The position numbers and the translations under genes were made by a program. Positions 25,012 to 41,594 of a stretch of DNA of 64,000 nucleotides are shown here, piece after piece (position 1 is the stretch's first letter; the number at the start of each line of letters is the position of its first letter). Origin of the DNA: an uncultured Planktomarina sp. (GTDB lineage: Bacteria > Pseudomonadota > Alphaproteobacteria > Rhodobacterales > Rhodobacteraceae). A model generated the notes under the pieces. That model was given only the letters and a program-made list of their open reading frames with translations, did no database searches and was not told the DNA's origin. The DNA lies in assembly GCA_905182425.1 (NCBI GenBank), contig CAJJBP010000001.1:79897-143896 (forward strand), read 5' to 3'.

Positions 25012-25710
25012 TTACTCTGGCGCTAACATGTAGCCCGCACCTCGGATGGTTTGAAGATAACGCGGTTGTTTTGGGTTGTTTTCAATTTTGCGGCGCAGTC
25101 TCGTGATTTGCACATCCACGGCTCGTTCTTGTGCCTGTCCACCATCACGGCCTAACTCTTCGACTAAGCGCGTCCGGCTCAAAGGCTTACTTGGGTTGCT
25201 TGAGAAAATGCGCATCAATTGGCTCTCAGTCGCTGTTAATCGGACGCGACCACTACCCATCCACATCTCACCGCGATCTACATCATAGCGAACGTCGCCA
25301 AGGTTCATAACCTTAGGTAATGTCATCGCCTGCTCAACCACCGGCGCCCGACGCAAAATTGCGTTGATACGGAGTAAGAGTTCTTTTGGCTCGAATGGCT
25401 TACCTAAATAATCATCCGCGCCGGCTTCCAGTCCAAGGATCCGATCTTCCGTTTCTCCTTTTGCTGTCAAAAGAAGAACAGGAGTGGTCCGAGTTTCGCG
25501 CAAATATCGCGTCAATGACACACCATCTTCACCGGGCATCATAACATCCATCACAATCAAATCAAAATCTAATCCCAACAAAATCCTCCGTGCATGAGCA
25601 GCATCTCTGGCCGCAGATACTAAAAACCCATTTCTGATTAGGAATTTTTGCAATAGGTTTCTAATTCTTTCGTCGTCATCCACTATCAATAAGTGGGCGT
25701 CGAGTATCAT
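25012..25710 (-). CDS. petR: OmpR/PhoB-type response regulator PetR
   Basis: A 232-residue two-domain regulator. The receiver has the acid pocket (VDDDERIR), the phospho-acceptor DLIVMDVMMPGEDG (near 54), and LLLTAKGE and GADDYLGKPFEP with the conserved Lys. The C-terminal winged helix includes GRVRLTATESQLMRIF and VDVQITRLRRKIENNPKQPRYLQTIRGAGY. It overlaps petP by four bases (ATGA). In Rhodobacter capsulatus the petP-petR pair is needed for cytochrome bc1 expression. No histidine kinase gene is adjacent, and the bc1 genes are not in this window. Confidence 0.88.
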   Translation of the reverse strand: MILDAHLLIVDDDERIRNLLQKFLIRNGFLVSAARDAAHARRILLGLDFDLIVMDVMMPGEDGVSLTRYLRETRTTPVLLLTAKGETEDRILGLEAGADDYLGKPFEPKELLLRINAILRRAPVVEQAMTLPKVMNLGDVRYDVDRGEMWMGSGRVRLTATESQLMRIFSSNPSKPLSRTRLVEELGRDGGQAQERAVDVQITRLRRKIENNPKQPRYLQTIRGAGYMLAPE

Positions 25711-26234
25711 TTGTGATCACCTAAGCTTAATTGCTTATACTGACGGAGTAAATCTGGATCCATCATTGCCTCAAGAACAGCATTAAACCCATGAACAGCC
25801 TCGGTACCAGCTTTTCGGTAAGCAGCACGCATTCGGTCGCGCTGAGCATCAGACAGAGCTTGTTCTAGTTCAGCACCCACCATAGTCAGAGTAAGGTGAC
25901 GTTGCCTTTTGTCACGCGTACCAACTTCGTTCAGCACCAAACCATCTTCGATCAATGTACGTAGCACACGATTTAGGCTTTGCTTGGTTACTCCAAGCGT
26001 CATTAAAAGATTATTCACTGTTGTGCCGGGACTTCGTTGGATAAAATGCAACGCGCGATGATGCGCCCTCCCATAAGATTTTTCAGCCAAGATCCGATCT
26101 GGATCAGCTGTAAATCCTCGATAAGCGAAAAACATAGCCTCAATCCCCTTACGCAACTGATCATCTGTTAAAAAAAGCAGACCTCGTACATTATCAGGTC
26201 GATTCAGGCCCGGTCCCATCTGTCTTCCTTTCAA
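25707..26234 (-). CDS. petP: MarR-family transcriptional regulator PetP
   Basis: A 175-residue winged-helix protein of the MarR fold, with DNA-binding segment PGTTVNNLLMTLGVTKQSLNRVLRTLIEDGLVLNEVGTRDKRQRHLTLT. It is the first gene of the petP-petR operon and overlaps petR by four bases. It is divergent from ilvE, and the 148-base gap between them holds a perfect palindrome (26319-26333) nearer ilvE. PetP could bind there, but the same palindrome near gltD argues for a different, wider regulator. Confidence 0.85.
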   Translation of the reverse strand: MKGRQMGPGLNRPDNVRGLLFLTDDQLRKGIEAMFFAYRGFTADPDRILAEKSYGRAHHRALHFIQRSPGTTVNNLLMTLGVTKQSLNRVLRTLIEDGLVLNEVGTRDKRQRHLTLTMVGAELEQALSDAQRDRMRAAYRKAGTEAVHGFNAVLEAMMDPDLLRQYKQLSLGDHK

Positions 26235-26318
26235 TCAAAACGTAGTCAGATAATACGTCAGTATTATTGACATTCCAAGAATCAATTGCTAGCAATTTGA
26301 ACAATTTTCGCAATATTA

Positions 26319-26333
26319 TGTCCGAAACGGACA
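26319..26333. promoter_or_regulatory. palindromic operator TGTCCG-AAA-CGGACA upstream of ilvE
   Basis: A perfect 6-3-6 inverted repeat ends 49 bases before the ilvE start codon. A further half-site copy (GGACATA at 26341-26347) repeats the right arm 12 bases downstream. The core TCCGAAACGGA is the exact reverse complement of the core of the palindrome between gltD and uppP (41578-41594). I did not see it elsewhere in the window's intergenic DNA. It is likely a dimeric repressor or activator site; the protein is unknown. Confidence 0.7.
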
Positions 26334-26382
26334 TATTTTTGGACATAAATGCAAACACTTGCTAACTAAAGGGAGTTTACAC

Positions 26383-27252
26383 ATGTCTGGCTCATACGAC
26401 GACCGTGACGGTGTCATCTGGATGGATGGCAAATTGGTGAATTGGCGTGATGCTAAAGTTCACGTCCTGACACATGGTTTGCATTATGGCAGCTCCGTAT
26501 TCGAAGGTGAACGCGCATACAGCGGCAAGATTTTTAAGTCGCGGCAACACTCCGAGCGCCTTTTAAAATCTGGCGAATACATGGACATTCCAATCCCTTA
26601 CACAGTGGATGAGATAGAGGCAGCCAAAGCCGAAGTGCTGGCGGCATCAGGATTGCAAGATGCTTACGTACGCGCTGTCTGCTGGCGTGCTTCAGGAGAA
26701 GATATGGGCGTTGCTTCTGCGCGCAACCCTGTCAAAATGGCAATCGCAGTTTGGGAGTGGGGTGCATATTACGGCGACGCTAAGATGAAAGGTGCAAAGC
26801 TCGACATTGCCAAATGGAAACGCCCTAGTCCAGAAACGATCCCCAGCTTTGCTAAAGCAGCTGGCCTTTACATGATTTGTACTATGTCAAAGCATGCAGC
26901 AGAGGCAAAAGGCTGCTCCGACGCGATGATGTATGATTACCGTGGTTATGTTGCCGAAGCGACAGGGGCAAATATTTTCTTCGTGAAAGACGGCGAGGTT
27001 CACACACCAAAGCCTGATTGCTTCTTGAACGGCATCACCCGCCAAACCGTCATCAATATGCTCGAAGAGCGCGGCGTTAAGGTAAATGTGCGCCATATCA
27101 TGCCTGAAGAGTTGGAAGGTTTTGAACAATGCTGGCTCACGGGTACGGCAGCTGAAGTAACTCCAGTCGGTCAAATTGGTGATCATACGTTTGAAGTAGG
27201 GACATTAACGCGTGAAATTGCTGAAGGCTATGAGCAGCTTGTGCGCAGCTAA
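26383..27252 (+). CDS. ilvE: branched-chain amino acid aminotransferase
   Basis: PLP enzyme of fold type IV that interconverts leucine, isoleucine and valine with their 2-oxoacids, using glutamate/2-oxoglutarate. It is 289 residues from the ATG at 26383 (MSGSYDDRDG), which has GGGAG seven bases upstream; the ORF track adds eight codons. Motifs include HGLHYGSSVFEGERAY, the likely PLP Lys in SFAKAAGLYM, and GYVAEATGANIFFVKDG with the family Glu. WLTGTAAEVTPV near the end completes the site. It faces the petPR operon, and the strong palindrome lies in its promoter. It stands alone, without other ilv genes. Confidence 0.93.
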   Translation: MSGSYDDRDGVIWMDGKLVNWRDAKVHVLTHGLHYGSSVFEGERAYSGKIFKSRQHSERLLKSGEYMDIPIPYTVDEIEAAKAEVLAASGLQDAYVRAVCWRASGEDMGVASARNPVKMAIAVWEWGAYYGDAKMKGAKLDIAKWKRPSPETIPSFAKAAGLYMICTMSKHAAEAKGCSDAMMYDYRGYVAEATGANIFFVKDGEVHTPKPDCFLNGITRQTVINMLEERGVKVNVRHIMPEELEGFEQCWLTGTAAEVTPVGQIGDHTFEVGTLTREIAEGYEQLVRS

Positions 27253-34705: not shown

Positions 34706-37700
34706 TCACTCAGCTGGAATAGCGCTTTCGATATTCAAACTCAAAGGTGCAGGCAAATGCACAAGCATTTCTTTTGGGCAAATTTGAACAAAGTTCGCAC
34801 ACTCCCGGTCCCAATGCTGGAGAATGTCTGACGCTTTGATCGAACCTGTTTCCTCAGCATGCTGAGTAATCAAAGCTTTAAGTTCTTGCTCCCAATGCGG
34901 AACTGTAACCAAACACGTTACCAATGTTTCCATGTTTATCATGCACTTAGTGCTTAGATCTGGATCATAAAGATAAGCCATTCCACCAGTCATACCTGCT
35001 CCAAAGTTAGCGCCAATGGGCCCAAGAATAACTGCAATACCACCAGTCATATATTCGCACCCGTTTGATCCACACCCTTCGATAACGGCTTTTGCACCAG
35101 AATTCCGTACACCAAAACGCTCACCGGCGCGGCCAGCAGCAAACAGGTAGCCATCAGTCGCACCGTATAGAACAGTGTTACCGATAATCGTATTTTCAGA
35201 CCAAACTAGCGGGCTTATCTGTGCCGGCCTAACAACGATCGTAGCACCCGAAAGGCCCTTACCAACATAATCATTAGCTTCACCCGAAACCACCAGTTTC
35301 AAACCTGGAGCAGCAAAGGCACCCAACGCTTGACCAGCAGAGCCTTGCAACTTTACCGTCAAATGATCTGCTTGCAGATTGTTTTTCATGCCAAAATTTG
35401 TAACAATATGGCTAGAGGTACGTGTTCCAATCGAACGCAAAGTATTTTGAACCGCATATTGCAGCTGCATCTTTTCACCGTCCTGTAGAAACCTTGCTGC
35501 ATCCGCCACGATCTGTGTGTCTAAAGTGTCAGGCACAGGGTTTCGCAACTTGTGACGATCATATTTAATCTGTTCTGCGCCATCAACTGTAATCAACAAT
35601 GGATTAAGGTCCAAATCATCCAAATGAGCAGAACCACGCGAAACTTGGCTCAACAAGTCTGCACGACCAATAACTTCTTCAAGCGAACGTGCACCAATAC
35701 TTGCCAATATTTCTCGCACTTCTTGCGCGTAAAATGTAATCAAGTTTACCACTTTATCGGCTGAGCCTGTGAACTTCTCGCGGAGGCCTTCGTCTTGAGT
35801 GCAAACGCCTACTGGGCAGGTGTTTGACTGGCACTGACGGACCATTATACAACCCATTGCGATCAACGCAGCGGTGCCAATACCATATTCCTCAGCGCCC
35901 AGCATGGCCGCCATTACGATATCGCGACCAGTACGCAAGCCACCATCTGTACGCAGTGTGACGCGCTCACGCAGGTTGTTCATAGCGAGAACCTGATGCG
36001 CCTCAGTTAATCCCATCTCCCACGGCAAACCCGCAAATTTGATTGACGTCGCTGGCGATGCACCAGTGCCACCATTGTGACCCGAAATCAAAATCACGTC
36101 AGCGCCAGCCTTTGCTACACCCGCAGCAATTGTACCAACACCAGAGGCTGCAACAAGTTTAACAGTCACTTTACAGCGTGGATTAATCTGTTTGAGATCA
36201 TAAATCAGCTGTGCCAGGTCCTCGATCGAGTAAATATCATGGTGAGGAGGCGGGCTAATCAGCGTCACGCCTTTGGTCGAATGACGAAGACGCGCGATAA
36301 GGTCGGTCACCTTCATCCCAGGCAACTGCCCTCCCTCGCCAGGCTTTGCCCCTTGAGCAACCTTAATTTCAAGCTCTTCACAATGATTGAGATACTCAGC
36401 CGTCACACCAAAGCGGCCCGAGGCCACCTGTTTTATTTTTGCAGATGGATTATCACCATTTGCTTCCGGCGTGAAATGCGCCGGGTCTTCGCCACCTTCA
36501 CCACTATCAGATTTAGCACCTATACGGTTCATAGCTACGTTGAGAGTTTTATGAGCTTCAGGGCTGAGCGCACCAAGAGACATGCCCGGGGTCACAAAAC
36601 GCTTACGGATTGCTGTAATACTTTCCACTTCATCAACATTAATTGCGACGCTCATAGGCTTGATTGCTAACAAGTCACGTAAGTGTATAGGCGGGTTTGC
36701 TTGCAATTTTGCTGAATAGTTCTTCCACATTTCAAAGCTGCCCTGATTGCAAGCTGCTTGCAAAAGATGCATTGTTTGCGCTTCCCAAGCGTGTTTCTCT
36801 CCTGAGCGGCGCGCCTTATAAAATCCTCCAACAGGTAAAACGTCTTTGGAGTTCACGTAGCCCGATGCGTGCACTTCTTCAGCTTTATGCTGGATACCAA
36901 CCACACCAATACCAGAAATACGCGATGTCATTCCTGGAAAATACTCAGCACACATCGCTCGGGATAGACCCACAGCCTCAAAATTCAAGCCACCACGGTA
37001 TGAGGAAATAACCGAGATACCCATTTTGGCCATGATCTTAAGCAAGCCTTGGTCAATAGCACTGCGGTACCTTGTAATGGCTTCGTTTAAAGAGCAATCC
37101 AGCAATCCACGACCTATGCGATCTGCAAGGCTATCTTCCGCGAGATAAGCATTCACAACGGTGGCGCCACAACCTATTAGGACTGCAAAGTAATGTGGAT
37201 CAATGCATTCTGCAGAACGCACATTAATTGAAGTGAAGGTTCGCAGACCTTGGCGTGTCAACCACGAATGCACGGCACTGGTCGCCAAGATCATCGGCAT
37301 CGCAACACTATCTTGCCTGCTATGGTGATCAGTCAAAACTAAATGTCCAGCTCCAGAACGCACCGCATCTTCGGCTTCTGAACGCACTCTGCTAAGCGCT
37401 GCTTGCAAAGAACCCACCGCCCGATCACTTGGAAAGGTACAATTAATCTCAACCATTGGTGCATTAAAGTTTTTTAGTAACCGTGCAAACTGAGCATTGC
37501 CTACAAAAGGCGAGTCTAAGACCAAAATTTCTGTTTGAGCGCTACTTTCGTCCAGCACGTTCTTGAGATTGCCAAATCTAGTTTTCAAACTCATCACACG
37601 GAATTCACGCAAACTATCAATTGGAGGATTAGTTACTTGGCTAAAATTTTGTCGGAAAAAATGCGACAGTGGACGGTATTTTTCACTTAGAACAGCTGAG

Positions 37701-39248
37701 GGCGTGTCATCACCCATTGAAGCCAGTATCTCTTTACCATCTTCCGCCATTGGAGCCAAAATTTGCTCTAACTCTTCTAGAGTGTAGCCTGCTGCAATTT
37801 GACGTTGGCGCAATTCTGCATTTTTAAAAATGGGTACCTCAATGGCCTTAGCAAGATCTTCATCAAGTTCTTTGATCTTGCCAACCCAAGAACCAAAATC
37901 TTGGCTTGCAGCCAATTTGTCTTTCATTTCGGTATCGTGATAAAGACGGCCTTCTTCCATATCCACCGCAAGCATCTGACCCGGGCCAAGCGCACCTTTT
38001 TCCTTAATATTTGCTTCGTCCACATGCACCATTCCCGCCTCAGATCCAGCAATAAGTAAGCCCTCGCCCGTCACCACGTAGCGCATCGGACGCAATCCAT
38101 TCCGGTCAAGGCCCGCACAAATCCAACGACCATCAGTCATGGCCAGAGCCGCTGGTCCATCCCAAGGCTCCATTACAGAGTTGCAGTAGGAGTACATATC
38201 AATCCAAGATTTTGGTAAATCAACGGCCTGTTTTGACCAGCTTTCAGGGACCAGCATAGTCTTCGCCATCGGTGCTGAACGCCCAGCACGCACCAACATC
38301 TCGAACACAGAATCTAACGCAGCAGAGTCAGACGATCCACTTGCGATCACAGGTTTAATATCTTCGGCCATATCCCCAAATGCATCCGAGGACATCCGTA
38401 TTTCATGACTTTTCATCCAATTTATATTGCCTTTGAGCGTATTAATTTCACCATTATGCGCTAACATGCGGAAGGGCTGCGCCAGCCACCATTGCGGAAA
38501 AGTGTTTGTGGAGTAGCGCTGGTGATACAAAGCAAACGCGGACTCGAAACGAGTGTCTTTCAAGTCTGGGAAGAAATCAGCAACATCCTCAGCTAAGAAC
38601 ATGCCTTTATAAATGATTGAGCGACATGACAGGCTTGCAAGATAAACACCATTGATGCCAGCAGCTGAAGCTGCTTTTTCAATCCGGCGACGGATGACGT
38701 AAAGTTCACGCTCGAAGGTTTCTTCATTCACGCCTTTGGAGTTGGAAATTAAAATTTGTTCGATCTCTGGACGTGTCGCATTGGCCTTATCGCCCAAGCA
38801 GGCTCACGTTAACTGGCACATGACGCCAACCATAAATGTAGTAGCCCATCCGTAAGACTTCAGTTTCAACAATTGTTCGACATGTTTCTTGAGCACCAAA
38901 ATCAGTGCGCGGCAGGAACACTTGGCCCACAGCCATTAATTCATCCATGCGCGGTGTGTGGCCTGTGCGTTCAATCTGGTCATAAAAAAACGGTACAGGA
39001 ATTTGAACATGAATCCCGGCACCATCACCTGTTTTACCATCCGCATCTACGGCACCACGGTGCCAGACTGCTTTGAGAGCTGCAATTCCCGCCTCAACGA
39101 CACCACGACTTGCTTTTCCATCAATTGATACCACAAGACCAACGCCACAGCTTGCGTGCTCTTCCGCCTCGGAATAGAGGCCATTTTCTGACACGTACTT
39201 ACGCTTCGCTTTCTCCGCTTGCACCCATTTTGTATCAAATTTTGTCAT
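34706..39248 (-). pseudogene. gltB: glutamate synthase large subunit, one-base frameshift
   Basis: NADPH-GOGAT large subunit. The glutaminase Cys is in EEHASCGVGLVVSIDG (after a propeptide of about 33 residues), followed by the central and FMN domains. The 3Fe-4S cluster motif MGCIMVRQCQSNTCPVGVCTQD and the C-terminal glycine-repeat helix (GATDGYLFAAGRAGERFGVRNSG) are intact. The first 153 codons (to VPVNVSLLG) and the remaining 1363-codon ORF are in different frames. Dropping one base from the GGG run at 38793-38795 yields 1513 residues, the normal size. A central metabolic gene with one such lesion looks more like a sequence error than decay. It is third in the gltD-ORF-gltB operon. Confidence 0.9.
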
Positions 39249-39990
39249 GATAAACTCCTGTCATGCCCAAACTGGACATTATACCTTCAGATCCAGATTT
39301 AGGAACATCCGCAAGAAAACCCACTTCATTGGGAAGTAAAAATTCAATTGGAGAAAAATTAAAAAACTTCGTAACCTTATCAGTTCGGTAGACATTAGAA
39401 CCACCAAAAAATACCCAATGCTTTAGACTTACATATTCAATAGCAAGCGTATCCCAAAGAAAGGTACCCTTAGTATCCGTAGCCTTCATCATTGATTTCG
39501 TTTGAAACAGCAGGATGTCATCAATTATGACTGTTTGACCCATCAACTGGTCCTCTCCTCGAAGCACTATAATCTCACCACTGGAAGATAGCATTTGGAA
39601 TACGAAGTCATCATGGTCTTTTTGGAGCAAGTTTGTCAGAAATGCGCGATCGATTGGTCCGGTTTCATCCAAGTTTTCAGATATTCCACTTGTCATATCC
39701 AACGCATAGAGCCAACGTGCTTCAGCGTCTGTTTGAACGTGATATATTTCGCCCTGCTCATCTAGGTCGATCCGCCACTTCAATCCTTCAGTGTCTGCAT
39801 GACAGGTGTAAAAATGTGAAAATAAATAGCTTTTGCTTTGCACTGTTAATAACGCATTACAAGAATTAGGCAAAACGTATTGCGCGTGCGCTGAACCTGC
39901 TGCAAATGCAATGAACCAGACCAAAGATATGATATCGCGCGCTAGGCGCGCGATTGACCTTAATTTCTCTGTCAAACAGTTCAGCATCAT
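39235..39990 (-). CDS. exported protein of unknown function inside the GOGAT operon
   Basis: A 251-residue protein with a signal peptide (about 1-37; ISLVWFIAFAAGSAHAQYVLPNSC). Two cysteines lie near the mature start (SCNALLTV, FYTCHADTEG), then a beta-rich region without membrane segments. No family is recognised. It sits between gltD and gltB and overlaps the gltB start by 14 bases, so it must be translated with them. I recall similar ORFs at this position in other Rhodobacteraceae, which suggests a selected link to GOGAT even though the product is exported. The frame is open throughout and appears functional. Confidence 0.7.
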   Translation of the reverse strand: MMLNCLTEKLRSIARLARDIISLVWFIAFAAGSAHAQYVLPNSCNALLTVQSKSYLFSHFYTCHADTEGLKWRIDLDEQGEIYHVQTDAEARWLYALDMTSGISENLDETGPIDRAFLTNLLQKDHDDFVFQMLSSSGEIIVLRGEDQLMGQTVIIDDILLFQTKSMMKATDTKGTFLWDTLAIEYVSLKHWVFFGGSNVYRTDKVTKFFNFSPIEFLLPNEVGFLADVPKSGSEGIMSSLGMTGVYHDKI

Positions 39991-40018: not shown

Positions 40019-41452
40019 TTATTCAGCCGCAATGACGCCCAATGTATCCAACTGCTCCAGAACAGCCGCTGCACAGTCTCGACCATCTCGGATTGCCCAA
40101 ACAACCAAAGAAGCGCCACGTACAATATCGCCCACCGCATAAACGCCAGGCACACTAGTTCGGCCTGTCTCATAATCTGCACGGATCGTCCCCCAGCGAG
40201 TAACCTCCAAACCATCGGTTCCCCAAAGCGTGGGTAGGTCTTCAGGTTCGAAACCCAATGCTTTAATCACCAGATCCGCTGACTCAAAATAATCTGCACC
40301 CTCGATCACCTCTGGGAACTGACGCCCAGTCGCATCTGGAAGCCCAAGGCGCATTTTTTGAACGTTGACACCGGTAACCGGTGTTCCAGAAAATCCCTTA
40401 GGGGCCGTCAGCCAAACAAATTCTACGCCCTCTTCCTCGGCATTTTGAGTTTCACGCAAAGAACCTGGCATATTCTCACGGTCACGACGGTACAGACACT
40501 TCACCGACGTGGCCCCCTGACGAACTGCAGTCCGAACGCAGTCCATAGCGGTGTCTCCCCCACCAATTACTATAACTTTCTTGCCATTCGCATTTAAACT
40601 ACCATCGTTGAACTCAGGCACATCATCGCCAAACCCGTGCTTGTTGCTGGCAATGAGATAATCAATGGCTTTTACAATACCATCAGCGTCAGAACCTGTC
40701 ACCTGCAAGTCACGTGACTTATAGACGCCAGTAGCAATGACAACAGCGTCATGTTTCGCCCGAATGTCGTCAAAACTAATATCAACACCAACCATACAGT
40801 TTGAAATGATTTCAACGCCACCATCTTGAAGCTGCGCAACCCGTTGCATTACAATATCTTTCTCTAACTTGAATCCTGGAATCCCGTAGGTAAGCAACCC
40901 ACCAGCCCGATCGTAACGATCATAGACGGTGACCTTAACACCTGCTCTCCGCAAAACATCTGCAGTCGCCAATCCACCGGGGCCTGCACCTATGATGCCT
41001 ACAGATTGACCGCGCTCTTCACTGGGTTGAATTGGTTGGACCCAACCTTGCTCCCAGGCCGTATCTGTAATGTATTTCTCAACAGAACCGATTGTGACTG
41101 TTCCATGGCCTGATTTTTCAATCACACAATTACCCTCACACAGCCGATCTTGCGGACAAATTCGCCCGCATATTTCAGGAAAAGTATTTGTAGCTTGACT
41201 GATTTCGTATGCCTCGCGAAGGCGCCCTTCAGCGGTGAGACGCAACCAGTCAGGGATATTATTGTGAAGAGGACAATGCGTTTGGCAATAAGGAACCCCA
41301 CACTGGCTGCAACGACTAGCCTGCTCTTCTGCTTTTGACATTATAAAATCAGAATAAATTTCCCCAAAATCTTCTGTGCGATCTTCTGCAGCGCGTTTTT
41401 TCGGCATGCCACGAGGTATTTTAACAAATTTTAACATCGGATTTTCAGCCAT
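40019..41452 (-). CDS. gltD: glutamate synthase small subunit
   Basis: A 477-residue FAD/NADPH and iron-sulfur protein that passes electrons to GltB for making glutamate from glutamine and 2-oxoglutarate. It has the N-terminal cysteine clusters SRCSQCGVPYCQTHCPLHNNIPDW and ICGRICPQDRLCEGNC, the FAD loop VGIIGAGPGGLATADVLRRAG, the NADPH loop KVIVIGGGDTAMDCVRTA, and the C-terminal GVYAVGDIVRGASLVVWAIRDGRD. It is the first gene of the operon. Its promoter region carries the palindrome at 41578-41594, which matches the ilvE operator. Confidence 0.95.
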   Translation of the reverse strand: MAENPMLKFVKIPRGMPKKRAAEDRTEDFGEIYSDFIMSKAEEQASRCSQCGVPYCQTHCPLHNNIPDWLRLTAEGRLREAYEISQATNTFPEICGRICPQDRLCEGNCVIEKSGHGTVTIGSVEKYITDTAWEQGWVQPIQPSEERGQSVGIIGAGPGGLATADVLRRAGVKVTVYDRYDRAGGLLTYGIPGFKLEKDIVMQRVAQLQDGGVEIISNCMVGVDISFDDIRAKHDAVVIATGVYKSRDLQVTGSDADGIVKAIDYLIASNKHGFGDDVPEFNDGSLNANGKKVIVIGGGDTAMDCVRTAVRQGATSVKCLYRRDRENMPGSLRETQNAEEEGVEFVWLTAPKGFSGTPVTGVNVQKMRLGLPDATGRQFPEVIEGADYFESADLVIKALGFEPEDLPTLWGTDGLEVTRWGTIRADYETGRTSVPGVYAVGDIVRGASLVVWAIRDGRDCAAAVLEQLDTLGVIAAE

Positions 41453-41577
41453 AATGTCCCCATTCCGTAAAGCGAAACCAAACGCAAGTTCTGAGATAGA
41501 ACAAAGTCAGTAGACGTGACCTTTATATTAAAGAATTAGCGATAGCGATACTTTTCTTATCAAAATATTCATTTTTT

Positions 41578-41594
41578 AGGTCCGTTTCGGACCT
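41578..41594. promoter_or_regulatory. palindromic operator AGGTCCG-TTT-CGGACCT between gltD and uppP
   Basis: A perfect 7-3-7 inverted repeat lies 125 bases upstream of gltD and 64 bases upstream of uppP, which diverge. Its core TCCGTTTCGGA is the reverse complement of the ilvE site core. A short T run follows on the plus strand, so a hairpin terminator is an alternative reading. But no gene is transcribed rightwards into it, so a DNA operator fits better. Confidence 0.65.

Follow-up and report, generated by a model that had tools for sequence, protein, structure and literature searches.

Which protein reads the palindrome that stands 49 bases 5' of the ilvE start codon (ATG at 26383), and which genes does it serve? 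The first-pass annotation of this locus had described the 15-mer at 26319–26333, inside TATGTCCGAAACGGACATA, together with a second palindrome between gltD and uppP whose 11-base core is the reverse complement of the first. It had seen the motif nowhere else in the intergenic DNA of the window (the whole 64,000-nucleotide stretch of Planktomarina DNA analysed), and had proposed a single regulator, left unnamed, for ilvE and the GOGAT operon. Both the position and the relationship between the cores were confirmed. The pattern TCCGWWWCGGA occurs twice in the window, where 0.10 copies are expected and none of 100 shuffles reached two; these are the only two copies in the whole 2.43-Mb assembly, which holds eight copies of the reversed control pattern. 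The motif is thus nearly unique in the genome, rather than occurring at a random rate that includes the inside of genes. Across four Planktomarina genomes, matches to TRKGTCCGNNNCGGACMYA with up to two mismatches recur at the same genes in two places, ilvE and gltD-uppP, and one more identical match, with no gene context assigned, is common to two of these genomes (G000 and G007). Below, O2 denotes the annotated palindrome and O1 a second palindrome, GTCAN7TGAC; the features are collected in Table 1.

Table 1. Genes, predicted promoters and candidate operators at the two loci (window coordinates).
Feature	Position	Strand	Description
petR	25012..25710	-	OmpR-type response regulator; same operon as petP
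petP	25707..26219	-	MarR-family regulator, 170 aa; PF12802 8.7e-11; proposed binder of O1 and O2
Predicted petP promoter	26250..26278	-	TTGGAA-N17-TATTAT, O1 in spacer
O1 at petP/ilvE	26257..26271	none	GTCAGTATTATTGAC; A-type half-sites
Predicted ilvE promoter	26267..26295	+	TTGACA-N17-TAGCAA; inferred; block conserved across 79 loci
O2 at ilvE	26317..26335	none	TATGTCCGAAACGGACATA, candidate palindromic operator; C-type half-sites GTCCG / CGGAC
ilvE	26383..27252	+	Branched-chain amino acid aminotransferase; NF005726 1.1e-154
gltB	34706..39248	-	Glutamate synthase large subunit; two frames
gltD	40019..41452	-	Glutamate synthase small subunit, first gene of GOGAT operon; TIGR01318 1.2e-156
O1 at gltD	41506..41520	none	GTCAGTAGACGTGAC, close upstream of gltD; O1–O2 centres 73 bp apart
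O2 at gltD	41578..41594	none	AGGTCCGTTTCGGACCT, between gltD (-) and uppP (+)

Conservation of the palindrome at ilvE

Upstream of ilvE, O2 was present in all 79 Rhodobacteraceae loci examined, with arm positions 80–100% conserved and a loop centre carrying practically no information; it was not evident in families other than the Rhodobacteraceae. An alignment of 23 petP-ilvE regions contains the palindrome genus-wide, in exact or degenerate form; upstream, another palindrome, GTCAGN6TGAC, is likewise conserved. The architecture common to the 79 loci reads TTATGTCAGCCTTGTTGAC...TAGCGA...TTGCGCAAYATTATGTCCGnnnCGGACCTA...GCGCAA. The motif is kept before ilvE and gltD across the family, and the ilvE palindrome is real and ancient. 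Less durable is the GGACATA half-site annotated downstream of the ilvE copy, which is present at 26341 but not conserved: a sister genome reads AGACATA at this position, and other genomes read GCGACATAA or GCGCAACAAATG.

Two other elements were observed in the same region. Repeats resembling TTGCGCAA, about 32 bp apart, flank the ilvE O2 family-wide (about 26305–26350 in the window) and are absent at gltD; they appear to form a further element. A GANTC site lies between the predicted ilvE -35 and -10 in 73 of the 79 loci (about 26278–26283 in the window). GANTC is the CcrM methylation motif in Alphaproteobacteria, hinting at a cell-cycle or methylation input at ilvE.

Phased pairs and interchangeable half-sites

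Two genes that we take to be the petP and petR of Rhodobacter, names that no profile model carries, are divergent from ilvE, and O1 lies between the two transcription units. It occupies the interval between the -35 and -10 elements of the predicted petP promoter and its right half coincides with the ilvE -35 (TTGACA), while O2 spans about +15 to +33 of the predicted ilvE transcript. The distance between the two centres is 62 bp in 73 of the 79 ilvE loci, as in the window, and 63 bp in five more (78/79 in all); at gltD it is 73–75.5 bp in 52 of 61 loci. These spacings amount to six helical turns at ilvE and seven at gltD; the difference is one turn, which places the two members of each pair on the same face of the helix. 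At gltD, the sequence between the sites is poorly conserved and its length is kept.

The palindrome annotated between gltD and uppP is conserved in about 50 of 61 genera, within genus and family alike. We ruled out uppP as its target and assign it to gltD because it stays at gltD in four loci where uppP is not divergent. O2 lies upstream of the gltD promoter at this locus, and O1 overlaps the promoter region. The palindrome of the annotation is real, and is to be read as one member of a helically phased pair, with gltD and not uppP as its owner.

Further along the GOGAT operon, gltB is divided between one frame encoding the first 153 amino acids (38787–39248) and another encoding the rest (34706–38797), which suggests a frameshift, either real or an assembly error. 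Between gltD and gltB, a 251-amino-acid gene (39235–39990) is without a Pfam or NCBIfam match.

The O2 slot at gltD is filled differently from genus to genus, by AGGTCCGnnnCGGACCT, by AGGTCA...TTACCT or TGACCT, or by a hybrid. Only the outer arms were used to score spacing, and only the inner bases to score half-site type. Sites with an N9 spacer carried two GTCCG halves in every case (12/12), those with N10 one such half in 11 of 12 (three N10 sites having one half of unclear type) and those with N11 two GTCA halves in 24 of 26. Spacer length and type are tightly coupled (r = -0.92, permutation p about 1e-5) in this sample of one genome per genus, a design that reduces shared ancestry and leaves some of it. 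Since O1-type, O2-type and hybrid sites exchange within this slot, O1 and O2 are most simply two forms of one operator, from which we infer a single protein that recognizes both.

Our target searches were pattern scans, not exhaustive ones. A composite O1–O2 search within the genus recovered the architecture only at petP-ilvE, with a gap limit that just excluded gltD. Among the loci examined, matches to TGTCAGN6TGACA outside petP-ilvE fall inside genes. One petP-ilvE region (L252) has two O1-type sites about 42 bp, or four turns, apart.

PetP and other candidate binders

A near-unique motif conserved before both genes supports the annotated idea of one regulator shared by ilvE and the GOGAT operon. 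PetP, the product of the neighbouring gene, is the most likely candidate, and on the sequence patterns that follow we consider PetP the probable binder. Both O1 and O2 are palindromes, a form suited to a dimer, and the PetP recognition helix TKQSLxRVL is conserved across families, with no variation in TKQSL or RVL among 10 sequences. Of 33 loci, nearly all from other alphaproteobacterial families, about 30 have O1 at the petP start. A scan of 115 genomes for one specific form of O1, GTCAGYCATRTTGAC, gave 29 exact matches; every one adjoins petP, and none falls in the 53 genomes without petP (Fisher 3e-10), many of which are small. With few exceptions O1 is located in the interval between petP and ilvE, where ownership by petP is not separated from ownership by ilvE; in the sole outgroup petP locus without a neighbouring ilvE (L257) it is degraded, and in L022 half of it is kept. 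Part of the conservation of O1 is coding, because the petP start codon forms its centre in many outgroups (ATGGCTGAC); the arms persist where O1 is further upstream of the petP start, at sites whose central CAT is the start codon elsewhere. A petP start codon inside O1 (TATGTCAACATGGCTGACATA), seen in many Alphaproteobacteria, suggests that the operator overlies the start codon and that the message may be leaderless.

A division of labour with PetP on O1 and another factor on O2, acting together at both promoters, would explain why inner bases and spacing differ between GTCAN7TGAC and GTCCGNNNCGGAC, why O1 is class-wide and O2 seemingly confined to the Rhodobacteraceae, and why extra TTGCGCAA flanks accompany O2 at ilvE and are absent at gltD. 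However, both types and their hybrids replace each other in the gltD O2 slot with the centre fixed, and we regard two proteins as unlikely.

We also considered whether the binder might be a LysR- or Lrp/AsnC-type regulator instead of PetP. The region between a LysR gene and a divergent, probable ior gene contains an A/A site, TAGGTCAN7TGACCTA. Four Planktomarina genomes carry this site without a single difference, and about 27 of 30 Rhodobacteraceae genera have it. The gene beside lysR is without a Pfam match, and from its N-terminus we take it to encode indolepyruvate ferredoxin oxidoreductase. The site may instead belong to that LysR protein, and E. coli Lrp controls gltBD. The LysR box, a T-N11-A dyad, can be found in O1 (TCAN7TGA) but not in C-type O2 (TCCGNNNCGGA), so that the pair as a whole does not conform to it, and exact O1 matches track petP; a LysR or Lrp/AsnC binder is accordingly rather improbable. 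If PetP is the binder, the ior/lysR divergon would be a tentative third target, judged by its site. Another candidate was dropped. The near-match TAGGGCATA.GCAATGACATA is conserved before a TPP enzyme at three loci, considered at first as an acetolactate synthase, but the N-terminal sequence looks to us like that of sulfoacetaldehyde acetyltransferase; the site seems unrelated and is probably that of another regulator.

At the level of RNA, each palindrome could be read as the hairpin of an intrinsic terminator or attenuator, with a stem, a 3-base loop and a T-run facing ilvE and uppP, and both rank as the top terminator-like sites by score. Nevertheless, among 78 distinct ilvE sites pair covariation was not consistently above shuffles, and just 31% of the sites pair at position 7; conservation does not extend to the T-run, hybrids with A-type halves are unable to form the stem, and the one Rfam match in the window is a tRNA, with none at the palindromes. 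We rejected this very improbable reading on covariation, T-run and Rfam. That the palindromes arose by chance, for which the mere two copies in the genome might speak, is hardly credible and is already refuted by conservation, with position, phase and arms kept across dozens of genera.

A model for joint control and its known relatives

We favour, with moderate confidence, a model in which a PetP dimer occupies O1 and O2 and jointly controls petPR, ilvE and gltBD. A dimeric winged-helix regulator, most likely PetP, would bind O2 and O1 on the same face of the DNA. At petP/ilvE, O1 overlaps both the petP promoter and the ilvE -35, with O2 a short way downstream of the predicted start of ilvE transcription; at gltD, O1 overlaps the promoter region. 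With both sites filled, whether by cooperation or through a DNA loop, the simplest outcome would be joint repression of the three units. Branched-chain transamination would in this way be matched to glutamate supply until a ligand releases the protein. Such joint control would be sensible, as glutamate is the product of GOGAT and a product or substrate of IlvE. We know of no MarR dimers that loop DNA over six to seven turns.

The arrangement can be compared with several known systems. E. coli Lrp joins glutamate synthase and branched-chain amino-acid metabolism through several phased sites, whereas here there are strict palindromes, apparently very few targets and an adjacent MarR gene. GltC, a LysR protein of Bacillus, provides dedicated control of GOGAT through palindromic boxes; here, in contrast, C-type O2 misfits the LysR box, ilvE is included and the spacing differs. 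MarR autoregulators with a divergent target likewise combine a small winged-helix dimer with a palindromic operator in their own promoter, but the present system would add two operator forms, phased pairs six or seven turns apart and an unlinked second target (gltBD). The nearest studied alphaproteobacterial MarR system that we found is LdtR of Liberibacter and Sinorhizobium, which has two sites, at its own and the neighbouring promoter (PMC3999280). Its reported sites, of the ATATTTCTT-GTGATTTAA type, and its target ldtP differ from those described here, and we rejected LdtR as the same system, its type of site being absent by eye from the ilvE and gltD palindromes. A literature search, with subscription papers mostly outside its scope, returned no description of the motif or of a PetP operator or regulon.

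PetP and PetR are widespread in Alphaproteobacteria. If the model is correct, PetP acquires a defined operator, with two candidate targets that are firm and a third that is tentative, and would be an unusual regulator in accepting two half-site types with a spacing that changes with type, a rule testable with a few synthetic DNAs. Branched-chain amino-acid transamination and glutamate synthesis would then probably both be under the control of one small regulator, PetP. The fullest form of the proposal is plausible and somewhat short of probable: that PetP uses two interchangeable kinds of half-site, each with its own dyad distance, in operators six or seven turns apart, and that it thereby may run a dedicated Rhodobacteraceae-wide circuit that links branched-chain transamination to glutamate synthase and possibly to indolepyruvate oxidoreductase.
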